Positions 318 through 23,122 of a stretch of DNA of 64,000 bases are shown here, piece after piece. The position numbers were made by a program, and so were the translations under genes. Under the pieces are notes generated by a model, which saw only the letters and a list, made by a program, of their open reading frames with translations, ran no database searches and was not told the DNA's origin. Every line of letters starts with the position of its first letter. Positions within the stretch are counted from its first letter, which is position 1. The stretch comes from Hydractinia symbiolongicarpus. Taxonomy: Eukaryota; Cnidaria; Hydrozoa; Anthoathecata; Hydractiniidae. The DNA lies in the NCBI RefSeq assembly GCF_029227915.1, contig NC_079880.1:17938001-18002000 (forward strand), in the 5' to 3' direction.

Positions 318-929
318 ATGGCGAAAAACACACTTTACATGAAAGAGCCCCACACAGCATTATTCGTTGGCCCCACCGGCTGCGGAAAATCAAAACGTGT
401 TGTAAAATTATTAGAGAATGAACACTTTGATCACTTCGATTTCATCGTGATTATATGCCCAACATTAAGATGGAATAAGACATATAGGGACCGAAAATGG
501 TTTTGGAACGACAGATATGTGATTCTAATTGAGCCGGGAGGTATGTTATATGAATGGATTCGAAAGATGACGGATTTCTGTGCCGGATACAAAACCTTAT
601 TCCTGATCGACGATATCATCGCAGATGAGAAACTAGACAAAAAGAGACAGCCATTGCTAGAGTTGGCCATTAGCGGACGACATCGAAACCACACTATGTG
701 GCTACTCACACAATCATACACCGCTATACCAAAAAATTTACGAAGGCAAGCTAAAATGTTATATGTGTGGTATCCAAAAGACAGACAAGATCTCACAACT
801 ATTCATGAAGAGAATGATGTCATTGAATCACGATCGGAGATACAGACGGTTAAGGAAAGGCTAAAAGATGGTAAATACACACATTTAGTCATGAGAATGG
901 AACATCCAAGAAATTACGTGATTTGCTAG
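318..929 (+). CDS. Packaging ATPase (A32/FtsK-HerA type)
   Basis: A 203-residue P-loop ATPase that in Polintons and related viruses drives genome packaging into the capsid. The Walker A motif GPTGCGKS is at about residues 18-25. The Walker B region is LFLIDDI at about residues 95-101, followed by the conserved ELAISGRHR and WLLTQSYTAIPKNLRRQ segment (arginine finger and sensor region). The length is normal for the family and no break is visible. A decayed homologue lies in element 2 at 19375-19749. A long perfect palindrome follows the stop within 15 bp. Confidence 0.9.
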   Translation: MAKNTLYMKEPHTALFVGPTGCGKSKRVVKLLENEHFDHFDFIVIICPTLRWNKTYRDRKWFWNDRYVILIEPGGMLYEWIRKMTDFCAGYKTLFLIDDIIADEKLDKKRQPLLELAISGRHRNHTMWLLTQSYTAIPKNLRRQAKMLYVWYPKDRQDLTTIHEENDVIESRSEIQTVKERLKDGKYTHLVMRMEHPRNYVIC

Positions 930-4784: not shown

Positions 4785-5767
4785 TCACCAACCTTGCACA
4801 TAATCAGGAGGTAAATCTGTATCTTCAGGTATTAACATCAATTCCTCTTTTACAAAAGCCCGTCTGGGTCCGTCTTGAACATAGTACATTACACGGTTAC
4901 TGGGTTGCGCTATTACCTCACGCAATCTATATGTGTTTTTCGACCATATTCTATCGGTTGCCCGTCTCCGCCCATCATCATGCTCTTCACCGGGTTGCAA
5001 TAGATATCTATACAAGCCATCTTTAGGTAATTCTACTTCATAAGGATAACTCTCTTGATTAACCAAAGGCACCTCTTTCATTATAATAGCATCTTTTGGT
5101 TTCATACCAATCATCTGCGTCTTTGTATCGTTTAGCCTATCAATCAGTTTATACAGATGCTTAACCCATGTAGATGATACCTTTTCCGAATCATTCAGTT
5201 CTTGGGCATCTTGTATTTTGAATAAATTTTCGGCAAGTATCTTGTTCAACGCCTCAACAAAAGCTGTGTGCGTATGCTTATATTTTGTAGTCGCTCTTTT
5301 AATTTCAACCTTATGCTTCTCCAACAATTTTGATACATCTGCCTTGAATTCTGAACCGTTATCACATTGGAAAGTTTTCGGATAAGTTAATGGTCCTGCC
5401 TTGTAGATGTCCTCAATCATAGCGGCAACCTCTTTGGCTTTCTTACTCCTCAAAGGTCGGGCTACTTTGTATCTGGAGGCAGCATCGATTCCCGACAAAA
5501 TGTACTTATATTTATTACCATACAGTATGTCACCGGCATGTACAATAAATCGAATTGATGTAAATCATTAGGGGTGGTAACTTCATAATGTGGTCTTTCA
5601 ACATGTTTTGGAGCGGGTAAATGTACTTGCCAAAATGCTTGTTTTGATAGCCACTTCTTAATCTCCTTTGGCCTGAAGCCGAATCCTCTTAAATTCTGAA
5701 CAGCCTTTTGTCCTTTCCATAAATTTTGAGGTTGATAGTAATTCTCTTGAAGTTTAGAGTTTGACAT
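4785..5767 (-). pseudogene. Retrovirus-type integrase with one frameshift
   Basis: A DDE integrase that in Polintons joins the element to host DNA. The first part (5767 down to about 5536) contains the N-terminal region and the first catalytic Asp in LHQFDLLYMP. The frame then shifts by one base near 5534-5537, and the rest continues with SGIDAASRYKVARPL, the second Asp in FQCDNGSEF and the Glu in TAFVEALNK, then a C-terminal chromo-like region (RAFVKEELMLIPEDTDLPP). All three catalytic residues are present but in two frames. Full length would be about 325 residues, normal for the family. It starts with the A/T-rich ATAAATAAAAC leader. Confidence 0.85.
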
Positions 5768-5861: not shown

Positions 5862-6173
5862 ATGTCCGACATAACAAATCAAACGGATCTACATTGTGAT
5901 ACCACCGATGGTGGTGTATCCGACTACAAATTAATGAAACTCAAAGAGTTGAAAGAATTGGCTAAATCCCGTGGGGTGAAGTATATTTGTGGAATGAATA
6001 AAGCTAAATTGATTGAGGTGATTGAGAGGAATGATATGGATCCATCCTACACCATCGACCTAGATACCAAACAAGAATGGTATGGATACTGTTCCAACTG
6101 GAGGGTAAACAACAGAGAAGCATATCTAAGATCTCAAAAACGTTATAACGATAAGAGATCTTCCAAAAGGTGA
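5862..6173 (+). CDS. SAP-domain protein
   Basis: A 103-residue protein with a SAP motif (helix-turn-helix that binds AT-rich DNA) at about residues 25-57: LKELKELAKSRGVKY, then NKAKLIEVIE. The C-terminus is basic and aromatic (WYGYCSNWRVNNREAYLRSQKRY), suggesting nucleic-acid binding. Upstream lies a TATA-like ATTATATATAAAG just before the ATG. It is one of three SAP modules in element 1. The role, perhaps genome organisation or targeting of chromatin, is inferred. Confidence 0.7.
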   Translation: MSDITNQTDLHCDTTDGGVSDYKLMKLKELKELAKSRGVKYICGMNKAKLIEVIERNDMDPSYTIDLDTKQEWYGYCSNWRVNNREAYLRSQKRYNDKRSSKR

Positions 6174-6191: not shown

Positions 6192-6215
6192 TTTGTTACT
6201 CGCGCGAGTAACAAA
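6192..6215. terminator. Perfect 24-bp palindrome after the SAP gene
   Basis: The core GTTACTCGCGCGAGTAAC plus flanking T3/A3 follows the SAP gene stop by 19 bp, after a T run. The identical core recurs at 7085 after the next gene. It has the same TGTTAC...GTAACA outer arms as the palindrome at 942 but a different centre. Confidence 0.6.
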
Positions 6216-6289
6216 TGTTAAGAATCTTTTTTAGTTTCACGATTATAAAACTATCTTAAAGGTTCATAAATCGTATACCACAAACCAAT

Positions 6290-7018
6290 ATGACTTCACG
6301 AAATACAGTTGCTGAATTGAGAGCTCTCGCTAGAGAACGCGGCCTACGTGGCTACTCAAGACTCAGAAAGGCTGAGTTGATCGAATTATTGAGACCCACC
6401 AGACCGGTACCAGCACCGGTTGAGAATGATGCGAGTGATGACGAGGACTCGGGATTGGCCGATCTGATTGAATTTTTGAGACTCGTACCGAGACTCGTAC
6501 CGAGACCAGTACCAGCGCCAGTTGAGATTGATGCAAGTGATGACGAGGACTCGGGATTCATCCCTCCGAGACCCCCCAGACCAGTACCAGCGCCGGTTGA
6601 GATTGATGCAAGTGATGACGAGGACTCGGGATTCATCCCTCCGAGACCCCCCAGACCAGTACCAGCGCCGGTTGAGAATGATGCGAGTGATGACGAGGAC
6701 TCGGGATTCTTCCATCCGATGGGCAATGGATCAATAGTACCGGTGCCTAGACCAGTACCAGCGCCTAGACCCACTAGACTCGTACCGGATCCAATCGAGC
6801 CGCATCAGCCGGCTATCCCAGACTATGACATTGATACCTTGGATGAAAAAGACATATGTATAATTTGTTATTCGAAACGAAAGGAAGCGACCATTGTTCA
6901 TGGGACCACCGGGCATTTTTGCTGCTGTTTATCGTGCGCATCTATATTGAAATCGGGGGGAGATAAATGCCCCATATGTCGAGCATCCATCGATCTTGTC
7001 ATTAAACAATATAATTGA
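6290..7018 (+). CDS. SAP - acidic/proline repeat - MDM2-type RING protein
   Basis: A 242-residue protein. Residues 5-35 form a SAP DNA-binding motif (TVAELRALARERGLRGY). Residues 36-150 are four PRPVPAPVE(N/I)DASDDEDSG repeats, acidic and with possible casein kinase sites, followed by more proline-rich linker. Residues 190-242 form a RING finger with C190, C193, H204, H209, C213, C216, C227 and C230. This is a C2H2C4 ligand set with the spacing and VHG.TGH signature of MDM2/MDMX RINGs, not the C3HC4 of IAPs, and it ends in a short tail with an aromatic residue next to the end, as those E3 ligases do. The likely role is a ubiquitin ligase delivered to chromatin; substrates are unknown. The start is supported by a duplicated leader shared with the polymerase gene. 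Confidence 0.85.
   Translation: MTSRNTVAELRALARERGLRGYSRLRKAELIELLRPTRPVPAPVENDASDDEDSGLADLIEFLRLVPRLVPRPVPAPVEIDASDDEDSGFIPPRPPRPVPAPVEIDASDDEDSGFIPPRPPRPVPAPVENDASDDEDSGFFHPMGNGSIVPVPRPVPAPRPTRLVPDPIEPHQPAIPDYDIDTLDEKDICIICYSKRKEATIVHGTTGHFCCCLSCASILKSGGDKCPICRASIDLVIKQYN
6500..6720. repeat. 75-bp tandem repeat within the RING gene
   Basis: Near-identical 75-bp units encode the PRPVPAPVE.DASDDEDSG linker, with a more diverged unit upstream from about 6407. The period is a multiple of three, so the frame is kept when units are gained or lost. Confidence 0.85.
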
Positions 7019-7065: not shown

Positions 7066-7330
7066 CCTAGATTGTTTTTTTTTTGTTACTCGCGCGAGTA
7101 ACAAAACCTGACGGTGGGGGGTTATCCGAGCTCGGGCTCGGATCTCGGAAGATCTCGAAAAATTGAATAAAAAGATCTTAAAGATTCATAAATCGTATAT
7201 CACAAACCAATATGACTTCGAGAAATACCGTTGTTGAATTGAGAGCTCTCGCTAGAGAACGCGGCCTACTCAAGGCTCAGAAAGGTCGATCTGATCGAAT
7301 TATTGACACCCACTACCGTGTCAGCACCGG
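7066..7330 (+). repeat. Duplicated gene-start module (hairpin, leader, SAP start)
   Basis: This block repeats 6178-6420. Both contain CCTAGATTG, a T run, the GTTACTCGCGCGAGTAAC palindrome, then TTCATAAATCGTAT(A)CCACAAACCAAT directly before ATGACTTC and the same SAP coding start. The first copy drives the SAP-RING gene, the second the polymerase gene. In the second copy the SAP coding sequence has small deletions that break the frame. Confidence 0.8.
7081..7106. terminator. Perfect 26-bp palindrome after the RING gene
   Basis: T4-GTTACTCGCGCGAGTAAC-A4 lies 62 bp after the RING gene stop, following a long T run. The core is identical to the palindrome at 6195. It is a likely transcript-end signal (inferred). 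Confidence 0.6.
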
Positions 7331-10300
7331 TACCTGTGCCGAGACCCACCAGACCAGTACCGGCGCCGAGACCCACTAGACCCGTACCGGTGCTTAGACC
7401 CGTACCAGCGCCGAGACCCACTAGACCCGTGCCAACTCTTAGAAACGCACTTCTCCAAGGTCTTATTAATAGTGGAAAAGTTGTTCAAAATACGGTAACC
7501 AACACTTTCCAGCGTGTGGTAAGCTCTTCTAAGACGGGAAAGAGAATGGTTTCTAATTTTATCGACTCAGGGAAAAAGTTTACAAAAGCTGTACCTAAAA
7601 ATATTCCTGATGGACTTCAATCTGTGAAAAAAGGTGTCAATAAAATTATAAACTTGTTCCAATCAAACAAAAAAGAACTAGAAGGTGTATTCGATGAAGA
7701 ACAGAAAAGACGCTATAATAATGTTTTGAAGGAACTAAATGAAACTGAAGAACAGAAGAAGAGTGATGAGGAAAACCCATATACCCCTATTGAGGAAGCG
7801 TTTGTAGGTTCATACAAACGCTTCCAGATAAACTCGGATGGTAAGAAGAATGTCAGGGTATTTTTGAAAAAGGTTCATCCTATCGTCAAGAGGTTGATGA
7901 GTGACGTGCTCGGGCAGAAAAAGTAATTGAAGACTCAGGCGACCTTGTGGGTGAGGTGGGTAAGGGATGATTTATCCAATGAGGATTTATCTAATCATGA
8001 ATCCATAGTAATGTATGTCGATAAAGCGTTCAATAGCTATATGGAGATACTGCACGCCCACGATGACATTTCTGATGTTTTCGATCGGATGTGTAATAAG
8101 ATAATCGAGCAGATTGAAAACCCTGCTCTACCCGCCAGCGGGTTCACAATCGAAAGGATCCTACATATGCATGTGGACTTTCATAAACTGAAATTAACCA
8201 GAGGTAGTTCTTACTTGCCGCTACCCTAGAATTTCAGTGGAAAGCGATCTGTGATTAACCCTCATAACGAGGATGATGATGAATGTTTCAGATGGGCTAT
8301 TATCGCTGCGCTTAACCACAATCTGATCAATAATCATCCTGAGCGTATCTCAATTCTTAAGAAGTTTGAAGGCAAGTATAATTGGGATGGTCTAAATTTC
8401 CCAATGGCGATAAATAAAATAGATTTTTTTGAGAGAAGGAACCCCGATGTCGCTGTGCATGTTTTGACAAAGGATGGGAGAGAAGGTATCTACATGTGTC
8501 GCAAGTCGAAGCATCTGGATCGTAAGGAGACGGTTGTTTTGTTTTTACTGTGTGAGGGGGATAAGAGACATTATATCGCTGTTAAGAACTTGAGCGGTGT
8601 CCTGAGCAAGGCCAACTCAAAGCATGAACATAAGGAGTATTATTGCTTGAATTGTCTAAATGGATTCTTAAGCGAACAGAAAAGGGATGAGCACTTTGAA
8701 TATTGTAAAGATAACGATGCTGCTAAGATTCAACTCCCTGAAGAGGTTAGCACCGTTAAATTTCACAATGGTCAGTACCAGCTCAAAGTCCCATTTATCA
8801 TGTATGCTGATTTCGAAGCCTTCACAAAAGATTTGCCTGAGGAAGAGAGAAAATGCGGATCATCCACGGAGAAAGTTGGTAAGCATTTCCCTACAGGTTT
8901 CTGTTGTTATAGCAAATTTGCTCATGGTGAAGTTTCGAACCCTCTGACGCTTTACCGCGGCGAGGACTGTGTTTCACGATTTGTTGATCATGTAGTTTCT
9001 GAGTCTAAAAGGTTATATAACATGTTTCCTCAGAAAGCAATGGATCCACTGACGGAGGAGGAGCGTGACAGTTTCAAGAGAGCCAGGGTGTGCCACATTT
9101 GCATGGAAGAATTTGATGACAAGGATGACATCAAGGTTAGGGATCACTGCCATTTCACCGGTAAGTTTCGTGGATCTGCCCATAGAGAATATAATCTCCG
9201 ATATAAGGTACCCAACTATATTCCAGTTGTCTTCCATAATCTTAGCGGATATGATGCACAGCTATTTATCAAAGAGCTTGCGAAGCAGCATGGAGAAGAA
9301 GATATGAGCGTTATCGCTGAAAATAAAGAGAAATATATCTCTTTCTCGACTGATGTTAAGGTTGGTGAATACATTGACAAAAATGGGGAGACCAAAGACA
9401 AAAAGATACAGCTGAGATTCATAGACTCATTCAGATTTATGGCAAGCGGCTTGAATTCGTTGGTAAACAATCTATCTGATGATCAGTGTAAAAATCTTCG
9501 AAAATTCTTCAATGATGATGAGCAATTCAAAATAATAAGAAGAAAGGGTGTATACCCATATGAATATGTTGATTCATTCGATAGGTTTAATGAAACTAAG
9601 CTTCCGTTGAAAGATGACTTTTATAGCAAGTTGAACATGAATGGTATCAGTGATACCGATTATGCGCATGCCCAGAAGGTGTGGAAGGACATGGAAGTTG
9701 AAAATATGGGTGCTTATCATGATATCTATCTCAAGACAGACGTTATATTACTTGCTGATGTTTTTGAGACTTTTAGGGAAACATGTTTGACAAACTATAA
9801 ACTGGATCCTTCACATTTTTACACGGCTCCGGGATTAGCCTGGCAGGCCTGTCTGAAAAAGACAGATGTTGAGCTAGATTTGTTGTCCGATATGGATATG
9901 TTACTGTTTGTGGAGAGGGGTATTAGAGGCGGTCTCTGTCAGGCTGTTTATAGACACGCCAAGGCCAATAACCCATATATGTGTGAGATGTATAATACTT
10001 CTGAAGAGACCACCTATCTACAATACCTAGATGCTAACAATCTGTATGGATGGGCTATGATACAGAAGCTGCCGACTGGAGGGTTTGAGTGGGATGATGC
10101 TAGTAAATTTATCGCTAAAGTCATTTCAAAGTTGGCTGCGGAAAATGGTGAATATGGTTACTTACTTGAGGTTGATGCAAGATATCCGCGAGAGCTTCAT
10201 GATACTCATAACGATCTTCCTTTCATGCCTGAGAGGAAGGTGATTAATGGCGTCGAAAAGCTGACACCGTGTCTTTCAGACAAGAAGAACTATGTCATTC

Positions 10301-10953
10301 ACATCCGTGCACTTGATCAAGCGTTGAAGCACGGTCTCATTCTTGAGAAGGTTCATAGGGTACTGAGGTTTAAGCAAAGCGGATGGTTGAAACCTTATAT
10401 CGATTTTAATACCGATCTGCGTACCAAATCAACGAATGACTTCGAAAAGGACTTTTTCAAGCTGATGAACAATTCAGTCTTTGGTAAAACTATGGAGAAT
10501 CAACGTAGACACAAAGACATACGCTTGGCTACCAAGAAAGAACAATATGAGAAGGTGATGAAGCCCAACTTCAAGGGTGCTATCTGTTTCTCGGAAACAC
10601 TGATGGGCATAGAGATGTCCAAGATCAAGATCAAACTGAACAAGCCAATCTACCTAGGCCCGGCGATCCTCCATCTATCGAAGATGGTTATTTATGAGTT
10701 TCACTATAATTACATGAGACCGAAATATGGTGGGGATGTAAAGCTTTGCTACGTGGATACAGATTCATTCGTTTATCATATCAAAACCAACGACTTTTAC
10801 AAAGATATCGCCGACGATGTAGCTTTGAGATTTGACACATCAGGGTACGATAGGAGAGATTGTAGACCTCTACCATTAGGTTTGAATAAAAAGGTCATTG
10901 GGCTGATGAAGGATGAGTTAGGTGGTAAGGTAATGAAATTCTTCTATCGTTGA
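7211..10953 (+). pseudogene. Protein-primed family B DNA polymerase (Polinton), broken and 3'-truncated
   Basis: Replicates the element by protein priming. The gene starts with a SAP module at 7211 that is out of frame, followed by PRPVPAPR repeats (from 7303). One frame then runs to 10953, interrupted by TAA 7924 (between two compensating one-base shifts near 7920 and 7965) and TAG 8227. In the 900-codon main part (from 8251) the exonuclease residues are D187/E189 (YADFEAF), D335 (SGYDAQ) and D497 (YLKTDV). The polymerase motifs are A (D594 in DANNLYG), B (K737...NS..G745) and C (D836-T-D838). The zinc-like CLNC...H..YC is near residue 130. After GGKVMKF the family's thumb and C-terminus are absent: the gene ends at a junction with host repeat. 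Confidence 0.9.
7794..7825. other. 13-bp-stem hairpin inside the polymerase gene
   Basis: GGAAGCGTTTGTA pairs perfectly with TACAAACGCTTCC across a 6-base loop. It lies in the N-terminal part of the polymerase frame, about 100 bp before the first in-frame stop. Its stem is stronger than several of the gene-end hairpins, so it might shorten transcripts, but this may also be chance. Confidence 0.4.
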
Positions 10954-12116
10954 TTTAACGGGTATGATCTATTCTTCTGACGTAAAATGGTAAAGTGCTA
11001 AGGGATTTTGTCCTAACATCGGCATATTCCTATCTCTGTTTAAGACGTTCTGCTGACGCCAGCATTGTAAATCCAAAAAATAGCCCGTTAAAACGCGAAA
11101 AATTTTTTTCAGAAATTTGTATCCCTGTTACCTTCCTCGTATAGAAGCGATGATCAAGAAAATGTATAGGATCATGTACTTTTGAGAAACAGTTGCAGAG
11201 ATATTAGGGTGTGAAAGGTTTTTGATGACGTTTTGATCCCGTCTATTCCGAAACAGATTTGGGAACCCAGGTTTGTGAAAATAACCCAAATTGGTCCTAG
11301 GTGGTCCCTAGTTACCTACGCGGTGAATAATCATTGACGTCACCACCTCGTTTCCAAGTTATTTGGCCTCAAAGTTTCAAGTGCACTGCAATGGCTTCAG
11401 TAATTTAATATACTTTCCTTTGACGTTAATATTGTTTTAACGTTAAAAGTTTAGTAAGTTACAGAACAATTTTATGGGCGATGTTTTACAGACTTTATCA
11501 AAGAAAATGGTGTAGAATATAATCCACTTTGCAAAAGTCACAGACAGACAGAACTGGCGTATTATTATAGACTAGTCGATAAGGCCCGTGGAAAAATCCA
11601 CTTAGGCAGAAGGACAATGGAAAAAAGGTTGTTTTACATTTTTTACTGACGTCAGCAGTGCAATTACAAAAATTTTTGGAGAAATTTAGTTTATTCGTTG
11701 CCTGTACTCTGCAGAGGTTTAAACGGTGACTAAGAAAATGTATATGATCATGTCTTTTTGATAAGCGGTTAATGAGATATAAAAGGGTTTTAAAATTTTG
11801 CTGACGTCAGCAATGGCCAGTCAAACCCCCAAAAGTTTTTTTTTAGAAATTTATATACCTGCTGCCTTCATTGCATAGGTCTTGAAACGCTGATCAAGAA
11901 AATGTATAGGATTTTTGACAAACGGTTGCAGAGATATTAGGGTTTAAAGGTTTTTGGTGACGTCATCAACCCGTCCATTCCGAAACGGATTCGGGAACCC
12001 AGGTTTGGGAAACTTACCCAAACTGGTCCCAGGTGGTCCCTAGTTACCTACGCAGGAGATGAAGTCAGTTATTTCCACCCGTTTCCAAGTTATTTAGCCT
12101 TAAATTTAAAAGTGCG
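10954..12116. repeat. Dispersed repeat with TGACGTCA motifs (two copies, one cut by element 2)
   Basis: No gene. After the truncated polymerase come two consecutive copies of a dispersed repeat (here called the CRE-like repeat). Each has CCCGTGGAAAAATCCAC near its start, stretches reading GCTGATCAAGAAAATGTATA, several TGACGTCA/TGACGTCAGC palindromes, a TTTCCAAGTTATTTGGCC segment, and an end with CAATGGCTTCA and an ACAGACAGACAGA run. The second copy (from about 11571) breaks at 12116 where Polinton element 2 is inserted and resumes at 25381. Other copies lie near 25.6-26.0, 48.4-49.1, 51.4 and 60.1-60.7 kb. Confidence 0.8.
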
Positions 12117-12321: not shown

Positions 12322-15300
12322 ATGAATTTTTTCAAAAAGGCAATCAGTAAACTATATGATACAGTATCAGCACCAGTAGCGCCAACTCGCGAAGCTCTCG
12401 CTAACCAAATAAGGAGCGTGAAGGATACCGTTAGTTACTATTATAACAGGGTCAGGGATAAATTTTCAGGAACACCAACTCTCCACGATGAGGTTCAACG
12501 GGTCACCATCGAAGATGAATACAAGGAATTGAGGACCTCAAACATATGTTCGGGAAAGAATCTAAGCATGCCACCAATACTGATGTAATTGAGGATATCC
12601 ATAATATTTTTGATGATGACGCGGAAATGATAGAAGACGGAAACCAAATCAAAATATGGCGATTTAATAATAACCTTAACCAGCCATTGACGGAGGCCAA
12701 AAAAAAATCACACCACACGTAGACATGCGTGTGAAGGTGGTATACAGCTTTAGCTGCGAAATTTACCGAGGCGGTGGAGATGTGGGCAATTACCACAAAA
12801 CAGAAAGCTCCGGGTCACACTCAAGCATGGCTGAAATCGAGGCTTTTATGGATGAATGGGAGATGAAGCGCCTGGATCTGGAAGATGCCGAATTTTGGAC
12901 GAAAGCCTACTTGCCACCAGATAGAACATACCAGGAGCATATGAAGGTAAAATAATATTCAAGCACGTTCAGATCAAGATAATTTCTACAAGGGAAACCC
13001 TACTTGGATGTGGACCTTTGCCAGGCTGGTTGCGCATCAAGAGGTGCATTTATAGTTTTGACAAGACAGACGAAAGAACGGACAGCCTATGCTTTTGGAG
13101 ATGCTTGGCCGTTCATTCCCGCGAGAATCGAAAGCAACGTGAAAAACATATTACGCAAGAGGCCCTCAAATTAGCCCGGGAGTACTACGAGGACCATAAT
13201 CTAAAGAGGGAGGATGTACGTGCTACGAGGCTCGTGGATTTGGAAGGCATCGCTAAAAGATTTGAAATTAATATCAGAGTCTTTGATCCAAAAACAAGCA
13301 ACGACAAGGCCCCATGGCGTCTCGTCTATGGCCACAATCAATACAAAAAAGACTTAGACACGATCAATATTGGTATGCTGCAGGGTCATTGTTTCTATAT
13401 CAAGAAGATGGATGTATTGACGCAGCATTGGGAATGCGAGGTTTGTACACAAAGATTTACCAGATCCGAAAATCTCACACGACACAAGAATAACGAATGC
13501 GAAGGCATCAAGACAAAGATCATTTGCAAAGGTGAAAAAATCGAGCGCATGCAGAGTAGCTCTGAAAAGGTATTCTATCCCGATAAGGGTTTCAGTTAAG
13601 CGGCATGCTAATGGATTGAGGCCATGTCAGAGCAAACAGGCCGACACATCCACCACGCGCTTTGTGGACATGGAGGAGAAAAAAAAACAACGAAATAAGT
13701 GTGTTGGCCTCAGAAAGAAAGCCATAAAAATGTATTTTATAGATTCTGGGATTGTAGAAAATAAAACTTTTTGGAAAACTATTAAGCCGTTTATAACCAA
13801 AAGAAGTGGTTTGAACAATGATAACATTATGATTATCAAAGATGGTGCTCAGATAACCAATGACAGTGAGCTTGCTGAATTATTTAATGATCACTATATA
13901 AACATTGTAGAAAAAAGCAGTGGAACCAACCCAATATCAATTTGTTATCGAAATTCCTTAGACAAATAGAGACTAATTAATGAGATAATTAAAACATACG
14001 AGAGTCATCCGAGTATTGTCAAAATTAAAGCCTGCAATGAAAATATAATTTTTTTTAACTCTGAGGAGGTAGATGACAACACAATCAAAAATCTTTTTAC
14101 TAATTTAAACATAAATTCCTCTCCAGGTAGAGACAAAATACCCCCAAAGCTTGTGAAGTTAGCCAGTGAATATCTGATTGGCCCATCGAAAAATGCTATA
14201 AACGTCAGTATACGAATATCACGGCTGTAAATGGCATGGATGACCATGTCAACCACAGCGAACCAACGTAGATAAAAATAATTTCAATCGTACCAAATTT
14301 AAAAAAGACCACATTCAGAATTTAGGCTACAATCTTGTCACTTCATGGGAGTGTGAAAATCCGCCCAAAATTAAGAGGGTATTCAAGAAAAAATTTCGAC
14401 CATATCCCCATTTTATAACATTTGATTTCGAGGCCCTCCTGGCACTATTGAATCAGCAGCAAACGCCTGATATAACATATATCTCCAAGCATATACCTGT
14501 AAGTGTAGCCATTCACGATAGTCTGCAAGAACATCCAACATTCATCATGAATGAAGACCCAAAGGTGCTTGTGCAAAAATTCGTTGAGAAACTGGAGCAA
14601 AGACAAATGAGGATTGTCCAAGAAGTCCCAAGCCAGATGATTTCGATATGCTCCCGGAACAATCTCAAAATGCTTGGCATGAATGGATAAATGGACAGTG
14701 ATAGGCTTTAACAGTGGCAAGTACGATATCAACATGATAAAGCGGTATATTGTCGAACGAATTGCGGATGATGATAATATCAAAGTAGCGAAAAAGGATA
14801 ATGATTACATGTTTCTAACCACCTCGAGGTTCAAATTCATCGATATAAAAAATTTCCTCGCGCCAGGTCTGAGTTATGAAAAATGGTGCAAGTCATTGGA
14901 TTGTGATCTCAAAAAATTAGTGTTTCCGTACGAGTGGTTGTCCTGCTACGAAAAGTTGAACCATGTGGGCCCAGTCAATCATGAGGCGTTTTATAGCACA
15001 CTCAGTGGTAAAAACACCCTCTCACCCGAAGATTACCAGACGTTCAGAAATGAGTTTTTAAAAGAGAATGCGTCACGATGCTGGATTGGTTAGCCGAATA
15101 CAATATGGCGGACGTAATACCATTTATCGAGGCCGTCGACAAGACCCGCAATACATACTACGAGGATTAGATTGACATTCTAAAAGATGCAGTGAGCATT
15201 CCGGGTGTTTCGATGCGGTATGTACTGAATAAATCCTTGCAGTTGAACCATGATATACAGCTTTATGCCCCAGGTGATCCCTGTAAGCATAAATGTGAGG

Positions 15301-16749
15301 CTCGTTGCACCAAAGCCCGATGCGAGGATTGTAAACAGGTTCAAAAAGATTGTACATCTTGTACAAAGAACGAGGCATATGAGCTCCTGCAAACTGGCAT
15401 GGTAGGTGGCCCCGCGATCGTATTCTGCCGATACCATGAGAGTGATGTGACGGGTATTCGCTCACATATTTATACTGAGCCAAACAAGTGCAAGACCATA
15501 CTGGGCTATAATGCGAACATGCTCTACCCAAGCACCCTGCTGCAGGACTTCCCTTGTGGGAAAGAAAAGCTTATAAAAATGGCAGATCCTGCTGGAGAAT
15601 TAGATAATCTGGCGCAGAGCATTATAGACGGAGATCTCTTCGGGTTTGCCCAAGTTGATAGAGAAGTCCCTACTGAGTTGTACGACAAGTTCAGTGAGAT
15701 GTCACCGTTATTTGTAGTCAGGGAGATCGCTGACAATCAAATTCCGCAGCATATGCACGAGTATTTGACAAAAACCAAACGAAAACGTATCCCTGGCACT
15801 AGGAAGCTCCTAGGGGTTATGAAGCTGAGAAGATCCTGCTTTGTACGGACCTGCTTAAATGGTATATTAATCATGGGTTAAAGATTACGGCTTGCTATAA
15901 AATACTTAAATACTCACGGGGTAAACCATTCGCATGGTTCCCGGAAAATATCGCGGATGCGCGTCGTCAAGCTGATAAGGACCCTGATAAACGTATTGCG
16001 GGCGATACAGCAAAATTGAAAGGGAACTCGTTCTACGGGAAGATGATAGAGGATTTGGCGAGACATAACAATACCACTTTTACACAGGATGAAAAGGTAG
16101 TAGATGCAGCAATGAGAAACCCATATTTGGAGGATTTAGAATAAATTGGAGAGGCATACGAAGTAAGACGGAGTAAACAAGGCGTTTCCATTAATAGGGC
16201 GTACCAATGCGGGATATATGTATATCAATTGGCCAAGCTGCGGATGCTCGAATTTTACTATGACTTCCTGGATAAGTACGTAGATCGACAAAATTACGAG
16301 TACATTTATATGGATACGGACTCCGTGTATTTTGCAATCTCTGGCGATAATCCACGTGATGTTGTTCGCTCGGAGTTACTCAAGCAGTATGATGAGGATG
16401 TTAAAAACTGGCTCGTTACCGACAAGCATTCAAGCCGCACCGGAGGGTATTCAAAGAAGAATTCATAGGGTGCAGAATGATTGCATTGACCGCCAAGTGC
16501 TATTTTGTCGAAGAGTTAGAAGGCACTAAACTCTCCTGTAAAGGAATGTCGAAAAGGCAGAACGAAGTAACATGGTCAAGGTACATGGGAGCACTGAAAG
16601 GCGAGCTAGATACCGCTAAAAATGTAGGCTTCCGGGTGCATAACCAGGGGATGATCACGTATGAGCAAAACAAGCTGGGGCTATCGGCGTTCTATGATAA
16701 GAGAGTTGTACATGAGGATAACATGCACACCTCCCCGCTGACGCTGTAA
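12322..16749 (+). pseudogene. Protein-primed family B DNA polymerase of element 2, decayed
   Basis: A different and larger polymerase than in element 1. Pieces in several frames follow the family's order: N-terminal extension (12322-12960), a C2H2 finger (CEVCTQRF...H..NEC, about 13435-13500), a region ending CGHGGEK (13683), an inserted reverse-transcriptase fragment, then CKWHG (from 14208), exonuclease I (TFDFEAL, 14423), exonuclease II (GFNSGKYDINM, 14703), a Cys-rich insert (15285-15365), motif A-like GYNANMLYPSTL (15508), motif B (KLKGNSFYGKM, 16015), motif C (MDTDSVYFA, 16312) and the native-looking C-terminus ending at 16749. Frameshifts occur near 12540, 12705, 15075, 15830 and 16465, with stops at 13597, 15168 and 16142. 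Confidence 0.88.
13684..14208 (+). mobile_element. Reverse-transcriptase (non-LTR) fragment inside the polymerase gene
   Basis: The polymerase frame stops after CGHGGEK and resumes with EYHGCKWHG. Between them is about 525 bp encoding a LINE-type segment: FWKTIKPFITKRSG, then ITNDSELAELFNDHYINIVE, a stop, and NSSPGRDKIPPKLVKLAS at the start of the reverse-transcriptase domain. It ends abruptly within the domain without a poly-A or 3' tail, so it is an internal fragment rather than a normal 5'-truncated insertion. Confidence 0.75.
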
Positions 16750-16774
16750 ATAGTGAGGTTTCCATGTCCAGAAG

Positions 16775-16799
16775 TTTTGTGAAGCACTACTACACAAAA
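16775..16799. terminator. Small hairpin after the element 2 polymerase
   Basis: TTTTGTG pairs with CACAAAA across an 11-base loop, 26 bp after the polymerase stop and 18 bp before the next start. It is a weak member of the gene-end hairpin series. Confidence 0.35.
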
Positions 16800-16816
16800 T
16801 GTAACAAAAAAACAAA

Positions 16817-17309
16817 ATGGAGAAAACCAAGAAATGCACACAATGCAAAAAGTCTTTATCTTTTGATAATTTCAAGATCAACAAGCGTAATGGGCAACGG
16901 ACAAAACAATGTATCAAATGTATCGATAGTAGGAGGGCGTCAGTGGAGCGGAACAAATGCCCGCATCAAAAACAGAGGGGTCGTTGTAAGGAATGTGATT
17001 TCCCGGGATATATGCATGACCTTATCATGACCAGGATTCACAGTGCCCTAAACCGTGACAGAGAGATTTATTCCACCGAGTATCTGGGGTGCGGTATTTG
17101 CACTTTCATTGGTCATATCCAAGCCCAATTCAAAGACGGTATGAACTGGGGCAACCGAGGGTCCTGGCCACAGAATCCCTATTAAATATAGAGATAATGG
17201 TGAATATCCAAGCGAAGAAGTTCAACTCGCACGACTCCATTACACCAACATGCAACCAATGTGGATCGCGGAGAATCAAAAGAAAGGTTATCGATATATA
17301 TATGCTTAA
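16817..17309 (+). pseudogene. Zinc-rich HNH-nuclease-like protein, core motif lost
   Basis: The first 122 codons give an N-terminal zinc ribbon (CTQCKKSLSFDNF...CIKC), a second Cys/His cluster (CPHQKQRGRCKECDF), then IHSALNRDREIYSTEYLGC and FKDGMNWGNRGSWP, features of HNH-type proteins found in large DNA viruses. Just where the Asp-His of the metal site is expected the sequence lacks a few residues and shifts frame. The typical C-terminus follows in another frame (QLARLHYTNMQPMWIAENQK) and stops at 17307-17309. The nuclease is therefore presumed dead. It lies 67 bp after the polymerase on the same strand. Confidence 0.65.
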
Positions 17310-17427
17310 AGTCGGTCGCGTTGAATAGGTTTTTTTTCTTCATAACTTCAAGTAACTCCTCTTCAGTATGAGTCGGTAAAAACAAGAACAAACTCATTTG
17401 CCTCATCCATTCAGAAATGTTTATCAT
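17310..17427 (-). pseudogene. N-terminal fragment of an unknown minus-strand gene
   Basis: About 38 codons beginning MINISEWMRQMSLFLFLP and continuing HTEEELLEVMKKKNLF look protein-like. Beyond them the frame only reads the antisense of the HNH gene. It appears to be the start of a gene whose remainder was lost where it now abuts the HNH pseudogene. Not recognised. Confidence 0.35.
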
Positions 17428-17435
17428 TTCTGAAT
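17409..17435. terminator. 11-bp-stem hairpin downstream of the HNH gene
   Basis: ATTCAGAAATG pairs perfectly with CATTTCTGAAT across a 5-base loop. It overlaps the start of the minus-strand fragment and lies about 100 bp after the HNH gene. Beyond it, 17436-17572 shows nothing. Confidence 0.4.
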
Positions 17436-17572
17436 AATCAAGAGATTTTATGTATGATGAGCAAAAGACCTAACCGGTGATGCGTGAATTTTTAACACAG
17501 GTAATAATCAAGGTGATACTGAATAGCTATATACAAAGCTTGATATATAGTAAAATTGTGGTAGCAGGCTTG

Positions 17573-18260
17573 AGGCCGTTTTCCACTCAGCGGAAATTCC
17601 CGAGCGGGCAGGAAATTTGCAGCAAATGTGCCGAAAAAAAATCAATTCCGGCGGAAAAATTGTCTACGAGAAGGCGAAAATGAAAGTTCAAAATGTTGAA
17701 CTTTTTCCGCCCGCCAAAAGAGACATTTGTTTTTTAACCAATCAGAATTCACCTCTGAGGAGAAGAAACTTCAAAATGGCGTCTGGATCTCTACCAAATG
17801 CTGTGACACGTTTCTACGAACAGCAGAAGCAGCAACAACAACAACAGCAAGATCGTCAACAACTGAGACGAGAAGAGGGGAATGCTTTTATTCCCAGAGC
17901 AGCTACAGCTAGCAGCTTACAACAAACTTGGTTGCTGCAGCAACAACAACAACAACTTCAGCAACAACAACTTCAGCAACAACAACAGCAACTTGATGAG
18001 CAACAAGAAGATGGCAACAATAATGCAGCTTTTCAGGAAGAAAGCTCCTACAACAGCGTCGAAACCGACCACTTGATAGAGAGCAACTTGAGATATGTTG
18101 AGCAATTACGCAGAGAGGCCCAAAATGTATAGCAGCCATATTTGTTCATATTCATTGCCGTGCTCAAAATTTCCCGCTCAATGGAAATTGAAACTGAGAA
18201 TCGCGCGGGCGGAAATTTCCTGCCCGCCCTCGGGAATTTTCGCCGAGTGGAAAACGGCCT
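17573..18260. mobile_element. Small inverted-repeat DNA transposon with a polyglutamine ORF
   Basis: About 690 bp with terminal inverted repeats of about 45 bp, AGGCCGTTTTCCACTC..CG at the left and its complement at the right, both containing AATTCCCGAG and GGGCAGGAAATTT. It lies within element 2, between the HNH region and the membrane-protein gene. No transposase is present. Target duplication is unclear (TTG and TTA next to the ends). The GC-rich, C+G-dense ends contrast with the surroundings. Confidence 0.75.
17776..18132 (+). CDS. Polyglutamine ORF inside the small transposon
   Basis: A 118-residue ORF starting MASGSLPNAVTRFYEQQ in a good context (CAAAATGG). It has two long Gln tracts (about residues 16-30 and 54-80) and an acidic, non-repetitive C-terminus (SYNSVETDHLIESNLRYVEQ) that suggests real coding rather than a CAA/CAG microsatellite alone. 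Function not recognised. It could be a captured exon or the second protein of an autonomous relative. Confidence 0.5.
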   Translation: MASGSLPNAVTRFYEQQKQQQQQQQDRQQLRREEGNAFIPRAATASSLQQTWLLQQQQQQLQQQQLQQQQQQLDEQQEDGNNNAAFQEESSYNSVETDHLIESNLRYVEQLRREAQNV

Positions 18261-18648
18261 TTAGACCTGGCTGAAGGGTACGGATAGGCGGGCGAGACCA
18301 TGCCTTACCTGGAGGCGGCCTTCTCGCCCCGGTTTCCACCACACACTGTGCCAGTCGGGAAAAATTGTGCCAGTCGGGAAAGAATTGTGCCAAAATGCCG
18401 GTTAAATGTCAGTGCTAGGAACGTCCTCTGAAAGTGCTCATTTAAAAGGTGGGTTTCGTTAATGCGTAGTACAAGCACGACATTCTGTATAGAGTATAAA
18501 GAGCAAGTACGCTAAGCCTGCAAAGCAGGACAGCACTGAAAAACACCTCGGATATGGAAAACCAAAGGCTCTGAGTGGTATACTCGCAGAATCAAAAGTC
18601 CTCTGGGTTCAAACAACAAAACACCCAGAGGGTTCCCTTACGAGGGTT
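18261..18648. other. Gap with a possible gene-end hairpin
   Basis: No gene seen. It contains a short duplicated phrase (TGTGCCAGTCGGGAAA twice, 18347-18380) and, at 18600-18631, a 9-bp stem CCTCTGGGT/ACCCAGAGG followed by a CCCTTACGAGGG element and T runs just before the next ORF. The last resembles the other gene-end hairpins. Confidence 0.4.
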
Positions 18649-19266
18649 TTGTTTTTATGCCTACTATGTTTTGCAATAATTCTTCCATACATCTTAATCA
18701 TCCTCGGTTATTTGAAATATAGACGAGTACTAATAAAGATGTCTGAATTAGCTGATATTTTTGATGTTGTAGATACTCCAGCTGACGCGCTTGAAAAACC
18801 TGATAAGCGTCAGTTTTTAAAAGATGCTCGCAAATCCAAGCCCCATCATTTACCGAAAAAATATACCGATGCGTTTTTAGACAAAGCATCACCCGAGATT
18901 ATCGAAAAAATATACAATGATTTTACTGAAAGAGAGCTTGTGGAAAAAGTGCAGAAGACTGCTAGAGCCCTACAAAGTCACGCGATAAACCTATATACGA
19001 AAGTAATAAGTAATGTTGTACCGCTCGATAGTCCCGAGGCTCCCCGTCATGACTTAGAAAACGACCCCGTTATTAAGGAAAACATGGTTGACTTGGGTAT
19101 TCTCGTTTATACAGCCTTTGGTCGATTCCTCGCGCCTCTTTTAGTTGCTGCGCACACGATAAATCATACTCAGATCTCAAAGTCCAAGATGAATGAAGAT
19201 AAGGTTGATGAAGAGCAAGAAAACAATGAGAAACAGTCTATCAAAGATACATATGGACAATCGTGA
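18649..19266 (+). CDS. Conserved Polinton membrane protein (element 2 copy)
   Basis: A 205-residue counterpart of the element 1 gene at 1140. It has an N-terminal hydrophobic helix (residues 1-22), a basic stretch, an internal Met (KMSELADIF, preceded by TAATAAAG) that could be an alternative start, a charged helical middle, the shared HDLENDPVI and AFGRFLAPLLVAAH motifs, and an acidic tail. As in element 1 it neighbours the ATPase gene, but here it lies upstream of it. The frame is intact although its neighbours are broken. Function unknown. Confidence 0.7.
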   Translation: MFLCLLCFAIILPYILIILGYLKYRRVLIKMSELADIFDVVDTPADALEKPDKRQFLKDARKSKPHHLPKKYTDAFLDKASPEIIEKIYNDFTERELVEKVQKTARALQSHAINLYTKVISNVVPLDSPEAPRHDLENDPVIKENMVDLGILVYTAFGRFLAPLLVAAHTINHTQISKSKMNEDKVDEEQENNEKQSIKDTYGQS

Positions 19267-19374
19267 AGTGTTTGAAATGGGAAGTATCATAGCAGATTCA
19301 TTAAATAATAGCAGAATAAAATCGCGGTACACGGATTGGTGTGGTATATATGGTGACTGTTTCGCACACGGTCT

Positions 19375-19749
19375 AAGGAATGGATTGAACGATTATCAAA
19401 TATCCTCGCCGGTGAGAGCACACTCTTCATAGTTGATGACATGATCACGGATGAATCCATGGATAAAAAACGCCAGAGCCTGCTTGAATTAGCCATTAGC
19501 GGGAGGCACAGGAAGCATTCGTTATGGCTGTTGACTTAGAGTTATACCGCAATTCCCAAAAACCTGAGGAGACAGAAAAAGCAGTTGTTCATGTGGTACC
19601 CGCACGAAAGGAGTGACATGAAATTGGTGGATGAAGAGACAAACATAATTAACGACTGGGAAGCGATCAAGAATCAGTTAAAAAAATCCAAACATGCCTG
19701 TTTGTATATTAGGCTGGACCATCCCAGAGCCTGGAGTATATTAGAATAA
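19375..19749 (+). pseudogene. Packaging ATPase remnant, Walker A missing
   Basis: About 125 codons align with residues 75-203 of the element 1 ATPase: Walker B TLFIVDDMITDE, LELAISGRHRKHSLWLLT, then an in-frame TAG (19537-19539), followed by SYTAIPKNLRRQKKQL and the C-terminus. The P-loop half is deleted: only a short stretch of unclear frame (19193-19374) separates it from the membrane-protein gene. Confidence 0.85.
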
Positions 19750-19755
19750 ATAAAT

Positions 19756-19959
19756 ATGTCATACATACATCAATTAGAAAAGCAACTGGATGCCTGCCAC
19801 CAAGAAATGGATAGGATACCACATTTGGAGCGGAGCCTGGAGGCTCTTGATGAAGATCTTCGTGATGTACTGGAAAGGGTAAGGTATCAGAGGAACACCA
19901 TGTATTTCTTCATATTAATGTCAACTGTTCTAATGACATACATCCTGGTTGGAATATAA
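19756..19959 (+). CDS. Small coiled-coil tail-anchored protein
   Basis: 67 residues with a charged coiled coil (about residues 5-47, heptads of Leu) followed by a C-terminal transmembrane helix (YFFILMSTVLMTYILVGI). It starts 7 bp after the ATPase remnant with a TAAATAAAT leader directly before ATG. Not recognised. A membrane-assembly role is possible. Confidence 0.55.
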   Translation: MSYIHQLEKQLDACHQEMDRIPHLERSLEALDEDLRDVLERVRYQRNTMYFFILMSTVLMTYILVGI

Positions 19960-20022
19960 TTGGGAAAGTTAGATATTGACCGTTTCAAAATATTTCAATA
20001 TATAATTAAGCGATAAAGAAAA

Positions 20023-20449
20023 ATGGAAAAGTACGTACAGAGTCAGCAATTTACAAAGTATTACGATGTGACGGTACCGGTTTTGCGATGCTGTATCAAT
20101 GCAGGTTCCACTACCGGTTATTGTTCACAGCGTTTGGAGAATTTTAGATTTAGAGATGACGAGTACTATGAAGGTTTTGTATATCCGGATGATGACGAGC
20201 TTTTAGACAGAATATATAGATGAGGATCTCGAGGTCGATATTGAGGACCGGGGTATGCATATTGTTTCAGCTGATGTGAACAAGTGGGGCATGCTCTGCT
20301 ACGAGATCATCAAGGATAAGGACCTAAGGCTCTCGGATCTAGCAGACCTAATGAAAATTGGCGACATACTCAACATTCAAATCGAAGATAGGGCATTGGT
20401 TGACATCATTGACCTTGATAGCGAGTCAAATGTTATCAAGGGAAAGTCT
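20023..20449 (+). pseudogene. Unrecognised element 2 gene with a frameshift
   Basis: The first 66 codons (MEKYVQSQQFTKYYDVTVP..., with acidic FVYPDDDELLD) shift frame near 20210. The second frame continues with acidic DEDLEVDIEDRG and KWGMLCYEIIKDKDLRLSDL, up to about 20449, where homology to the integrase on the opposite strand begins. The end is therefore a rearrangement junction. No domain recognised. It is acidic overall. Confidence 0.45.
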
Positions 20450-20820
20450 ATACGTCTTTTTGCTCCACCAAGCATCGGTCGCGCGTGTTTTAGCATCACC
20501 ATGCTCCTCGCCGGGTTGCAGCAAGTACAAGTATAGGCCATCATCAGGTAGAGGCTTTTCTTCAAGATGGCCATCGCTTTTCAAAAGCGGGACTTCATCG
20601 AGCTTAATGGCTTTCGAAGATTTCATGTCGATCATGACTGTCTTGGTATTATTTATGCTTTTGACGATAGTGTACAAGTGTTTGACCCATGTGGTACTAG
20701 TTTCGTTAGAGGCAACTCTTGCGCATCTTGGGGTTTAAAGAGTCTCTCGGCGAGTACTTTGTTGCAGCTTTCGACAAATGCCGTGAAGGTATGATGGTAC
20801 CGGGTGGTAGCCCGTTTATG
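20450..20820 (-). pseudogene. Integrase fragment (catalytic Glu to pre-C-terminal region)
   Basis: The minus strand encodes RATTRYHHTFTAFVESCNK (with the third catalytic residue), then after a frameshift near 20730 TWVKHLYTIVKSINNTKT and LPDDGLYLYLLQPGEEHGDA, ending near SKKTYRL. These match the element 1 integrase in order. The catalytic aspartates and the C-terminus are missing on both sides: the fragment is directly fused to the truncated capsid gene at 20820-20823. Confidence 0.8.
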
Positions 20821-20822
20821 CC

Positions 20823-21813
20823 TTATGTTTTAGCCTGTGAATACAGCTCATTGGGCTCACCCTCCACCGTGACAGAAATCTTCTTGATTTTGGGATTGTA
20901 GAATTGCTCATTGACACTCGTATAAGCCTTGGATACTCCGGGATCGACGAATAATAGTAATATACCCACCAAGGATTTAGCAGGGGTATCGACTTGGAGA
21001 TTGTAGGATGTATCACTTTTCTTTATAGCCACCACTTTACTCTTCAATACTCGTTCGTATGGTAGGCCGAGGCGGCTGTATCGCGACATCATAGCGCTCG
21101 CCAGATCCTCATTTACTAATTTTTCCAACTCGAGCGAAATGTTAGAGATTTTGTATGTAGCGTCAGCTGCTTTGGCTGCGGTTGAGCCCGCGGCTGGTGT
21201 ACCGGCATCCTTGATGACTTAATCGTATGAAGCGAAATGTAGAACGAACTGTAGCCTATCGTGGAATCCATGTTGATAAAACGGGAGATCTCTCGTCAAC
21301 TCGAACATTTTCCCCAACGGAATACAAAAGGTGTTTCCATACGCCGCGGTTATAGCACGCTCCTCATTTGTTCCTACATGGTCAGACGCTTTTTACCTGT
21401 AAAGCGCGAATTGTCCCGTCATTTGGATTGATTCCCTCCAAAATCAGATTGTTCTCCCTATTAAATTTCGATATCCAGAGATTACGGTAGACACTGAATA
21501 CATTATAATCCGCAATATGCTGGACCTCATTCCCATTCAAAGTAATACGTAGGTCACGCACCAGGGTCTTCCCAATATTGTTAACGATCGTTCTTTTCGT
21601 GTTGGTGCCGGTCAATTCCATATCAAATGGTAGTCTGATACTCCCAGGAAATATAACATCATCCCGACCCATGTTCGGTATTTTCACGTAGAGATCCTCA
21701 TTTTGGCCAATCGTGGACGGTACATGACTCACTTTAACCCGTTGCCTCTTGCTTTTGACAGCGAGCATAGCCTTGACTTCCTGATAAGGGTTTAGTCTTC
21801 CAAAAACACTCAT
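20823..21813 (-). pseudogene. Major capsid protein, C-terminally truncated and frameshifted
   Basis: The N-terminus (MSVFGRLNPYQEVKA; 143 codons to 21382) carries PNMGRDDVIFPGSIRLPFDM and RDLRITLNGNEVQ, typical of the first jelly-roll of the Polinton capsid protein. After a shift near 21378 the frame continues with SDHVGTNEERAITAAYGN and LGKMFELTRDLPFYQHG, a TAA near 21220, then ISLEFEKLVNEDLASAMMSR and KSLVGILLLFVDP, ending at EGEPNELYSQAK. The last third, the part present at 3-311 in element 1, has been lost at the junction with the integrase fragment. The ATG follows CCTAAATAA. Confidence 0.82.
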
Positions 21814-21842
21814 TTATTTAGGTAGGCTGATGGTTGAAATAA

Positions 21843-23120
21843 ATGGCTGATAATCCGGGATATGAAGATGACTTTACGCCAGAACGAGATATAGAAGACG
21901 AACCCGAAGAACTTAGTAGCGAGAACGAGATCCTTAGACCTGAGGATATTCCCACTACACCTTCACGAGGTGACACCACGACGGCAAGGCATGCGTTGAT
22001 GATGTCTAGAATTGATGACTTATATGAAGCCCTTGATGAGGAGCTAGGGCAACCGAATGCCAGGCATTACGATAGATTTAAAATAGAAGATAATCAGCTT
22101 ACCTACGATGGTGTAGAGCTCACGAAACAAAATGGTGAAATTAGGAAAACTTCCGCGATAGTGAGGGATCTAGGCGTGGGACGATTGCGAGCCATTGGAT
22201 TCCCCGACTATGTTACACCCAACAAAACCAGTAAAAATATGGCACAGGGACTTCTTAACGAGATTGTTCACGTTGAAGAAAAGGCTGATGACATCGAAAT
22301 GTTGCCGCTACTCGAGAATGTTCTAGATGAAACGAAGAGCCGAATGAAGGAGGATACTTCATTTACTGAAGCCTTAGATGAACGTGAAAGAAAGGGGTTT
22401 AAACGCGAGCTTCAGACTCCCAGCGGGAAACTGAAGAGGTTAAAGACAAAGAAAGCTACACCAGGTGTATCCGAGGAGCAACAAAAAATTTGGGATAAGG
22501 ATATACACAATCAGCTTAAAGCGATTAAGGAGTGCCTCATGAAAATAGCTGGAGATGACACATCGCTAAGGGAGAAGCTGACTATTCTCTTCAAAGAGCA
22601 AGGACCCGATCAGACGGTTACTCGAATTGAAATAATGAATGGGTTGTACAAGATCGAGGATTTAGCGAGTATCGTCAACAGTCAAGCACAGGGCAAGGTA
22701 CAACTTTTTGTTCTGAAAAATGGACTCTGCATGTTACGTGTTAATGACGGGTACACGGTGGTGATTCATCGACAACTGCAAGAGCTCTTGGTCCTACCCT
22801 ATGATCCCAGTAAAAAATACTATATGAAGGGTGACTACGATTCATTTTATGGGACTGATGTATACCAGCGACTGAGGCTTGTTTGCCCTCAGTTAGATGA
22901 GGATGATTGCTTGCTGGGTGGTAAAAAATCATAAATTCTAGCCGTACTTCCAACAAAAGAAAATGCATGGGGAGACATCTTTACGTGGACTTTTAATACA
23001 CCGATATATCTTCCTTTGAATGGCTGCACCGATCGCCTTGAGTTCATGTTGACGGCTGAATATCATCACGATAAGAACATTTCGTTCATGGGTATAACGA
23101 TGCATTTACTTATAGAATAA
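21843..23120 (+). pseudogene. Chimera: membrane/virion protein fused in frame to minor-capsid (penton) C-terminus
   Basis: Residues 1 to about 255 match in layout the element 1 gene at 2879-3946: acidic N-terminus, a RDLGVGRLRAIGF motif, coiled coil, and EKLTILFKEQG. Exactly after that motif the expected hydrophobic part is missing and the frame continues with GLYKIEDLASIVNSQAQGKV and VHRQ-type, Gly/Tyr-rich sequence resembling the Polinton minor capsid protein, up to TAA at 22932. The same frame then resumes with ILAVLPTKENAWGD and RLEFMLTAEY and ends at 23120. A deletion joined two adjacent genes. It diverges from the capsid gene across a 29-bp gap. Confidence 0.65.
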
Positions 23121-23122
23121 AC

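Follow-up and report, generated by a model that had tools for sequence, protein, structure and literature searches.

In a 64,000-nucleotide stretch of the Hydractinia symbiolongicarpus genome (hereafter the window; C6:17938001-18002000 of the 480.9-Mb genome), we find a gene that joins a SAP-like head to a C-terminal RING of the MDM2 class (6290..7018, forward strand). The gene lies inside a Polinton of approximately 14.4 kb that is bounded by 99-bp inverted repeats. Its head is of the kind carried by the DNA polymerase of the element itself, and its RING recurs beside Polinton genes elsewhere in the same genome. We propose, with a probability of about one half, that the product is an element-made E3 ubiquitin ligase in which a polymerase-type 5' leader and head have been fused to a captured cnidarian C1-RING module, and which may act at the site of replication or packaging. 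In our view, little is yet understood about the accessory genes that animal Polintons carry. No earlier description of a SAP-RING Polinton gene appears in the titles and abstract openings of the literature searched, and the novelty of the gene holds within those searches only. As judged from term searches and passages, Polinton, Maverick and Mdm2 are absent from the main text of the Hydractinia genome paper (PMC11067881), MDM2 does not occur in PMC11071296, and neither RING nor SAP occurs in PMC11071308.

Anatomy, RING class and recurrence

The single open frame encodes a protein of 242 amino acids (P0001) made of a SAP-like head (residues 1-38; 6290..6403), an acidic, proline-rich linker encoded by four copies of a 75-nt repeat (6398..6724) and a RING with its C-terminal tail (residues 190-242; 6857..7015), all on the forward strand. 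Such a linker had been described in a first-pass annotation made from the DNA letters. The same annotation named a SAP domain, which stands as a SAP-like head: residues 6-32 match the Pfam family Rho_N (PF07498; E 4e-8, 33.5 bits, cut-off 24.9), while SAP itself (PF02037) scores 19.4 bits, under its Pfam cut-off of 23.9. Rho_N and SAP are related SAP-like folds. Residues 187-235 match the Pfam RING family PF13920 (E 9.4e-11, 41.8 bits, cut-off 27). Searches of PHROGs and NCBIfam with P0001 returned SAP/Rho_N-like or weak matches and nothing else.

The zinc-ligand spacing of the RING is exactly C-x2-C-x10-H-x4-H-x3-C-x2-C-x10-C-x2-C; the RING contains the stretch VHGTTGH, and the tail of the protein ends in ...QYN. 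The spacing, the VHG.TGH signature and the tail with its aromatic residue had all been read correctly at first pass. A phmmer search of the PDB matches the protein to MDM2 (E 1.5e-11). Both profile and fold searches, the latter with an AlphaFold model whose linker is of low confidence, rank MDM2/MDM4 above MUL1, MGRN1 and the IAPs. This ranking rules out an IAP or generic identity and bears out the earlier assignment to the MDM2 class. The Pfam search (E up to 1) detects neither a SWIB p53-binding domain nor a RanBP2-type zinc finger in P0001; the latter finger is present in the metagenome proteins P0025 and P0026.

We searched the genome with all 242 residues of P0001 and obtained at least 238 matches with E up to 1e-3, from the best 150 of 944 candidates scored; among the matches listed, at least one covers the head only. 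A search with a Hydra C1-RING protein gave at least 117 matches (best 117 of 165 candidates scored). Three of these are exons of a single host gene on C12, and the others, at least 114, span only query residues 251-347, the RING end. From the P0001 matches we picked by hand 28 RING loci, in a first set of 20 and a second of 8, spanning identity classes and odd sizes. Polinton genes adjoin the RING in 28 of 28, with the RING match partial or broken in L009 and L039, so the first-pass suggestion to look for the gene in other Polintons is answered in its favor, and neither of the outcomes named there as refuting it, an IAP-type or generic RING or absence from other related elements, is observed. 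The open frame is not a chance one, because its product matches MDM2 in the PDB and because it recurs in Polintons of the same genome.

Most sampled loci are arranged as integrase, small SAP gene, RING gene and polymerase. L024-L027 and L042 depart from this arrangement, with a RING gene that is inverted or shifted to the other side of the integrase; there are two RINGs in L024 and three in L025, and the RING follows two SAPs in L015, L018, L025 and L026. L025 (C7:32480500-32490400) has a mirror-image arrangement, with polymerase, RING gene and integrase on both sides and three RING genes within approximately 5.4 kb.

Measured by the ratio of nonsynonymous to synonymous substitution rates (dN/dS), the RING is constrained across copies. 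We compared 19 RINGs, which a pattern search recovered from 17 of the 20 loci of the first set and from the window; their pairs share ancestry and are not independent. The median pairwise dN/dS is 0.22 and no pair exceeds 1 (computed for the 161 of 171 pairs whose dS exceeds 0.05). When the nine codons demanded by the search pattern are dropped, dN/dS is 0.33 with a maximum of 0.72. The copies compared reach a dS of 0.9 from the window copy. Zinc ligands (demanded by the pattern itself), E2-contact residues and the linchpin Arg are kept in 19 of 19 pattern-matched RINGs, and the position equivalent to MDM2 P476 in 18 of 19, the roles of individual residues being those of MDM2. The pattern missed three loci of the first set, L009, L014 and L025; in L025 the ligands are kept and the HG pair is absent.

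Origins of the head and of the RING

The RING gene carries a head of the polymerase's kind. The stretch at 6245..6347 (forward strand), which comprises 45 bases of 5' leader and the start of the SAP-like head, is 92% identical in DNA to the leader and head start of the polymerase gene downstream (7167..7269, forward strand). Compared with polymerases of related elements, the head is near-identical: 34 of the first 37 residues of P0001 agree with the L009 polymerase, and the linkers are alike. In L009, L019, L021 and L022 the polymerase is one open frame of 1308-1412 amino acids from head to stop, beginning MTSRNTV.ELR.LA.ERGL.GYSRLRKADLIELL and followed by a PVPAPRP-rich linker; in L023 a single frame runs from the head to just beyond the DTDS motif. 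The polymerase-side head is present in 20 of 20 loci of the first set and in 7 of 8 of the second, the eighth being L042, where the stretch examined does not show the polymerase.

Because the head is nearly that of the polymerase and the resemblance extends into the 5' leader, the gene has the appearance of a fusion between a duplicate of the polymerase head and a RING captured from elsewhere. We infer that the head of the RING gene is the copy and that of the polymerase the original. Gene conversion between the two heads within one element was considered and is not supported, the median identity being 0.60 within a locus versus 0.63 between loci. Neither the sharing of the head with the polymerase gene nor the multiple copies of the RING had been noted at first pass.

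The nearest named cellular relatives of the RING are cnidarian proteins in which C1_2 or ZZ fingers precede a RING that is 60-70% identical to that of the window; vertebrate MDM2/MDM4 RINGs are 42-44% identical. The kinship with MDM2 suggested at first pass holds for the class of the RING; the closest named cellular RINGs are those of C1/ZZ-finger-RING proteins and not of MDM2 proper. The highest identity outside the elements (72%) is to P0007, an unnamed metagenome protein. Among the matches there is only one host C1-RING gene (C12:20932389-20942961). Its RING, 70% identical to that of the window, is on the last matched exon, with an acidic lead-in and an acceptor-like TAG ahead, and the module in the element covers the same part.

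In three trees the 19 RINGs of the elements fall together in a single group (support 95/92, 93/90 and 89/82), which is sister to two C1-RING proteins, P0017 and P0018 (94/92, 98/93 and 92/93). The approximately unbiased (AU) test does not formally reject a grouping of the element RINGs with vertebrate MDM2/4 (p = 0.052) or with the Hydractinia host gene (p = 0.068), nor a grouping with P0007 (p = 0.198), which is placed apart from the elements in the trees. The simplest account of these relationships would be one capture from a cnidarian C1-RING gene. Viral contigs were scanned with the RING of the window, a RING profile of 14 rows, the polymerase open reading frame (ORF) and the integrase, and phages were searched by tblastn with the polymerase; none of these gave a viral relative. 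The negatives say little, because such collections probably do not include the Polintons of other animals.

The host Polinton and its surroundings

Around the SAP-RING gene we find a packaging ATPase, an integrase, polymerase motifs and inverted repeats, as expected from the Polinton setting claimed at first pass. The ATPase (318..929, forward) matches Pox_A32 (E 3.5e-7, 30.4 bits, cut-off 22.8). The retrovirus-like integrase consists of two overlapping ORFs (4785..5767, reverse), the longer of which matches rve with E 4.9e-7 and 30.4 bits, just under the curated cut-off of 32.6. A small SAP-like gene of 103 amino acids (5862..6173, forward) is a conserved neighbor. An ORF in the adjoining stretch to the left (L030 8998-9999) shares 42% identity across 132 residues with a capsid-like ORF of a neighboring Polinton; in the search for the capsid of the element, Capsid_N scores only 13.7 bits (cut-off 24). 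A perfect 24-bp palindrome (TTTGTTACTCGCGCGAGTAACAAA) lies in a T-rich setting at 6192-6215, after the small SAP gene, and again at 7082-7105, after the RING gene. It was rejected as a conserved signal between the SAP genes: its 16-bp core occurs in 2 of the 20 sampled loci besides the window (L009, L017) and is absent from the other 18.

The polymerase gene, putatively of family B type (7212..10953, forward), has a SAP head, a proline-rich linker, an N-terminal region and the polymerase proper. Its ORF of 900 amino acids starting at 8251 contains the motifs DANNLYG, NNSVFGKT and YVDTDS; the window polymerase has no Pfam polymerase match and no PDB match at E under 0.2. The window copy is broken, with a frame change after the head and two in-frame stops before the 900-residue ORF, and its 3' end is shortened (66 residues from the DTDS motif on, versus 160-163 in eight sampled relatives). 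The frame ends inside the right inverted repeat (10935-10953), where relatives have some 95 more residues and extra sequence before the repeat. An ORF at 7303-7926, considered as a separate gene, is part of the polymerase gene.

The right inverted repeat (10935..11033, forward, 99 bp) is 99% identical to the reverse complement of the left one (L030 6643-6741; C6:17934643-17934741), which is 3.4 kb to the left of the window. Of the 20 sampled loci, 14 have sequence similar to the right repeat on their polymerase side. Up to 3 bp from the ends of the 99-bp inverted repeats there is no 6-bp target-site duplication. The true end of the element is unsure, because the likeness to relatives extends 4 bases further on the right.

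Fragments of a second Polinton, more diverged and degraded, lie at window positions 13018-23767; they include pieces of a polymerase, an ATPase, an integrase and capsid-like ORFs. A third, of a more distant family, is at L029 900-9900 (C6:17918900-17927900), and its polymerase frame begins without a SAP head. The search used for the sampled loci found no RING or SAP gene in these two Polintons. The reverse strand at 31139-37304 has a retroelement-like ORF of 1852 amino acids, BEL-like by eye, together with an ORF of 222 amino acids. A 43-bp minisatellite of 21 copies, open in several frames, is at 58774-59672.

Proposed function and likeness to known systems

A ligase at the DNA or the replication complex of the element is predicted because the RING keeps the E2-contact and linchpin residues and the head is of the polymerase's nucleic-acid-binding type. 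Since the head is that of the polymerase, the replication of the element is pointed to as the destination of the protein. We infer the following order of events. The 5' leader and the N-terminal SAP-like head of the Polinton's own polymerase would have been duplicated, and the duplicate would then have been fused to the part of a cnidarian C1-zinc-finger-RING gene that its terminal exon encodes, the RING module. The resulting protein should dimerize through its MDM2-like RING and tail and bind an E2 of the UbcH5 type. Its head would take the ligase to the DNA or the partner recognized by the polymerase head, with the flexible acidic linker as a tether, and the ligase could ubiquitinate proteins at the replication or packaging site, e.g., restriction factors of the host that are bound to DNA, or the complex of the polymerase. 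Its effect may be to remove host restriction factors, to regulate the polymerase or to redirect the host C1-RING ligase. It is tempting to generalize, if tentatively, that a Polinton puts the docking head of its polymerase on a captured animal RING to deliver ubiquitination where its DNA is copied, and that related copies swap heads for new targets.

Several observations weigh against the proposed ligase or the support for it. A polymerase-like head is not obligatory, because RING genes with no recognizable SAP head number at least four, a single one in each of L024 (5614-6426), L025 (4527-5264), L027 (4215-5009) and L028 (4887-5750). They have instead unrelated N-terminal heads of roughly 200 amino acids, one kind with a long poly-Glu stretch, and in L027 and L028 the RING is the sole Pfam family that reaches its cut-off. 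Several copies that do have a SAP head have one unlike that of the polymerase. The polymerase head is less constrained than the RING (median dN/dS 0.385, with 11 of 151 pairs above 1; 19 copies). Tail aromatics matter for MDM2 activity, and the position of MDM2 F490 is N in the window copy and N, I or absent in other copies; the tail Tyr is missing from the annotated protein P0005. L014 has lost a zinc ligand (a His), and the L009 RING is truncated. Finally, the 28 RING loci are not a random draw, and the three RING trees (40, 37 and 38 rows) have only 54 columns.

The first-pass annotation saw in this gene a p53-regulator-type E3 ligase aimed at chromatin that interferes with host damage or death responses; on this view, a mimic of MDM2 would reduce host p53 or dampen such responses at chromatin. 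The MDM2-class RING agrees with such a role, as does the nucleic-acid binding suggested by the SAP-like head. However, the type of a RING gives by itself no substrate, the protein is without SWIB or a RanBP2 zinc finger, SWIB is likewise not found in the scanned cellular C1-RING relatives (P0009-P0011), and the head belongs to the polymerase type of the element; we consider a p53 regulator improbable. The RING of the element might instead pair with that of the host C1-RING ligase and redirect or poison it. MDM2-type RINGs do pair mutually (MDM2-MDMX RING heterodimers exist in the PDB), and a host gene with a similar RING is present on C12. We regard this as unlikely, though somewhat less so than p53 mimicry, since the RING of the element retains the residues that an active RING has and so needs no partner.

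The near-identical heads and leaders of the RING and polymerase genes would also suit a brake on copy number or superinfection, in which the protein competes with the polymerase or ubiquitinates it through the shared head. Some copies, however, keep the RING without a polymerase-like head, and self-limitation should be hard to maintain in a mobile element, which leaves the brake about as doubtful as an effect on the host ligase. That the gene is a hitchhiking fragment without function, retained only through the youth of the copies, seems very improbable. The window polymerase gene is indeed broken and some RINGs are degraded, but dN/dS is well below 1 over copies as far as dS 0.9 from that of the window, and the RING recurs beside the polymerase across divergent copies.

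The gene is probably an instance in which a virus-like element has captured a gene of its host: the RING has an identifiable cellular relative still in the host and is fused, under constraint over many copies, to a head common to the polymerase of the element. If the proposal is true, a mobile element has an E3 of its own that works at the replication site, and the genome of one animal contains this E3 amplified to at least about a hundred copies. The gene gives a direct test, in a laboratory-model animal, of whether Polintons use ubiquitin on host factors or on their own replication.

In known systems, the closest likeness in fold is to the RING of MDM2/MDM4. The two share the C2H2C4 order and spacing of ligands, the VHG.TGH stretch, the predicted fold, the E2-contact and linchpin positions, and a location at the extreme C-terminus with a tail of matching length. 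They differ in the 42-44% identity of the RING, in the lack of SWIB and RanBP2 finger (Pfam) in the element protein, and in the penultimate residue of the tail, which we take to be F in MDM2/MDM4 and which is N in the element protein. The closest named cellular RINGs are those of the cnidarian C1/ZZ-finger-RING proteins (Hydra LOC100205294, relatives in Dendronephthya and Actinia, and the Hydractinia C12 gene, where the last matched exon encodes the RING and the acidic lead-in together). These have C1_2/ZZ fingers before the RING, and the Hydractinia member is divided among exons, whereas the element gene has a SAP-like head and one open frame. P0007 has a RING tail identical in kind to that of the element; no SAP or C1 domain is found in it, and its contig is 1433 bases long. 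The family B type polymerase of related Polintons/Mavericks shares the N-terminal SAP-like head, the proline-rich linker and the 5' leader, but continues into the polymerase where the element gene has the RING. Possible working analogues are the SAP-containing E3s RAD18 and PIAS, in which a DNA-directed SAP motif is joined to a RING-type ligase; they are unlike the element protein in domain order and RING type. Viral RING E3s such as herpesvirus ICP0 offer another working analogue, a virus-encoded ligase that acts on nuclear proteins, with a RING of different class and origin.
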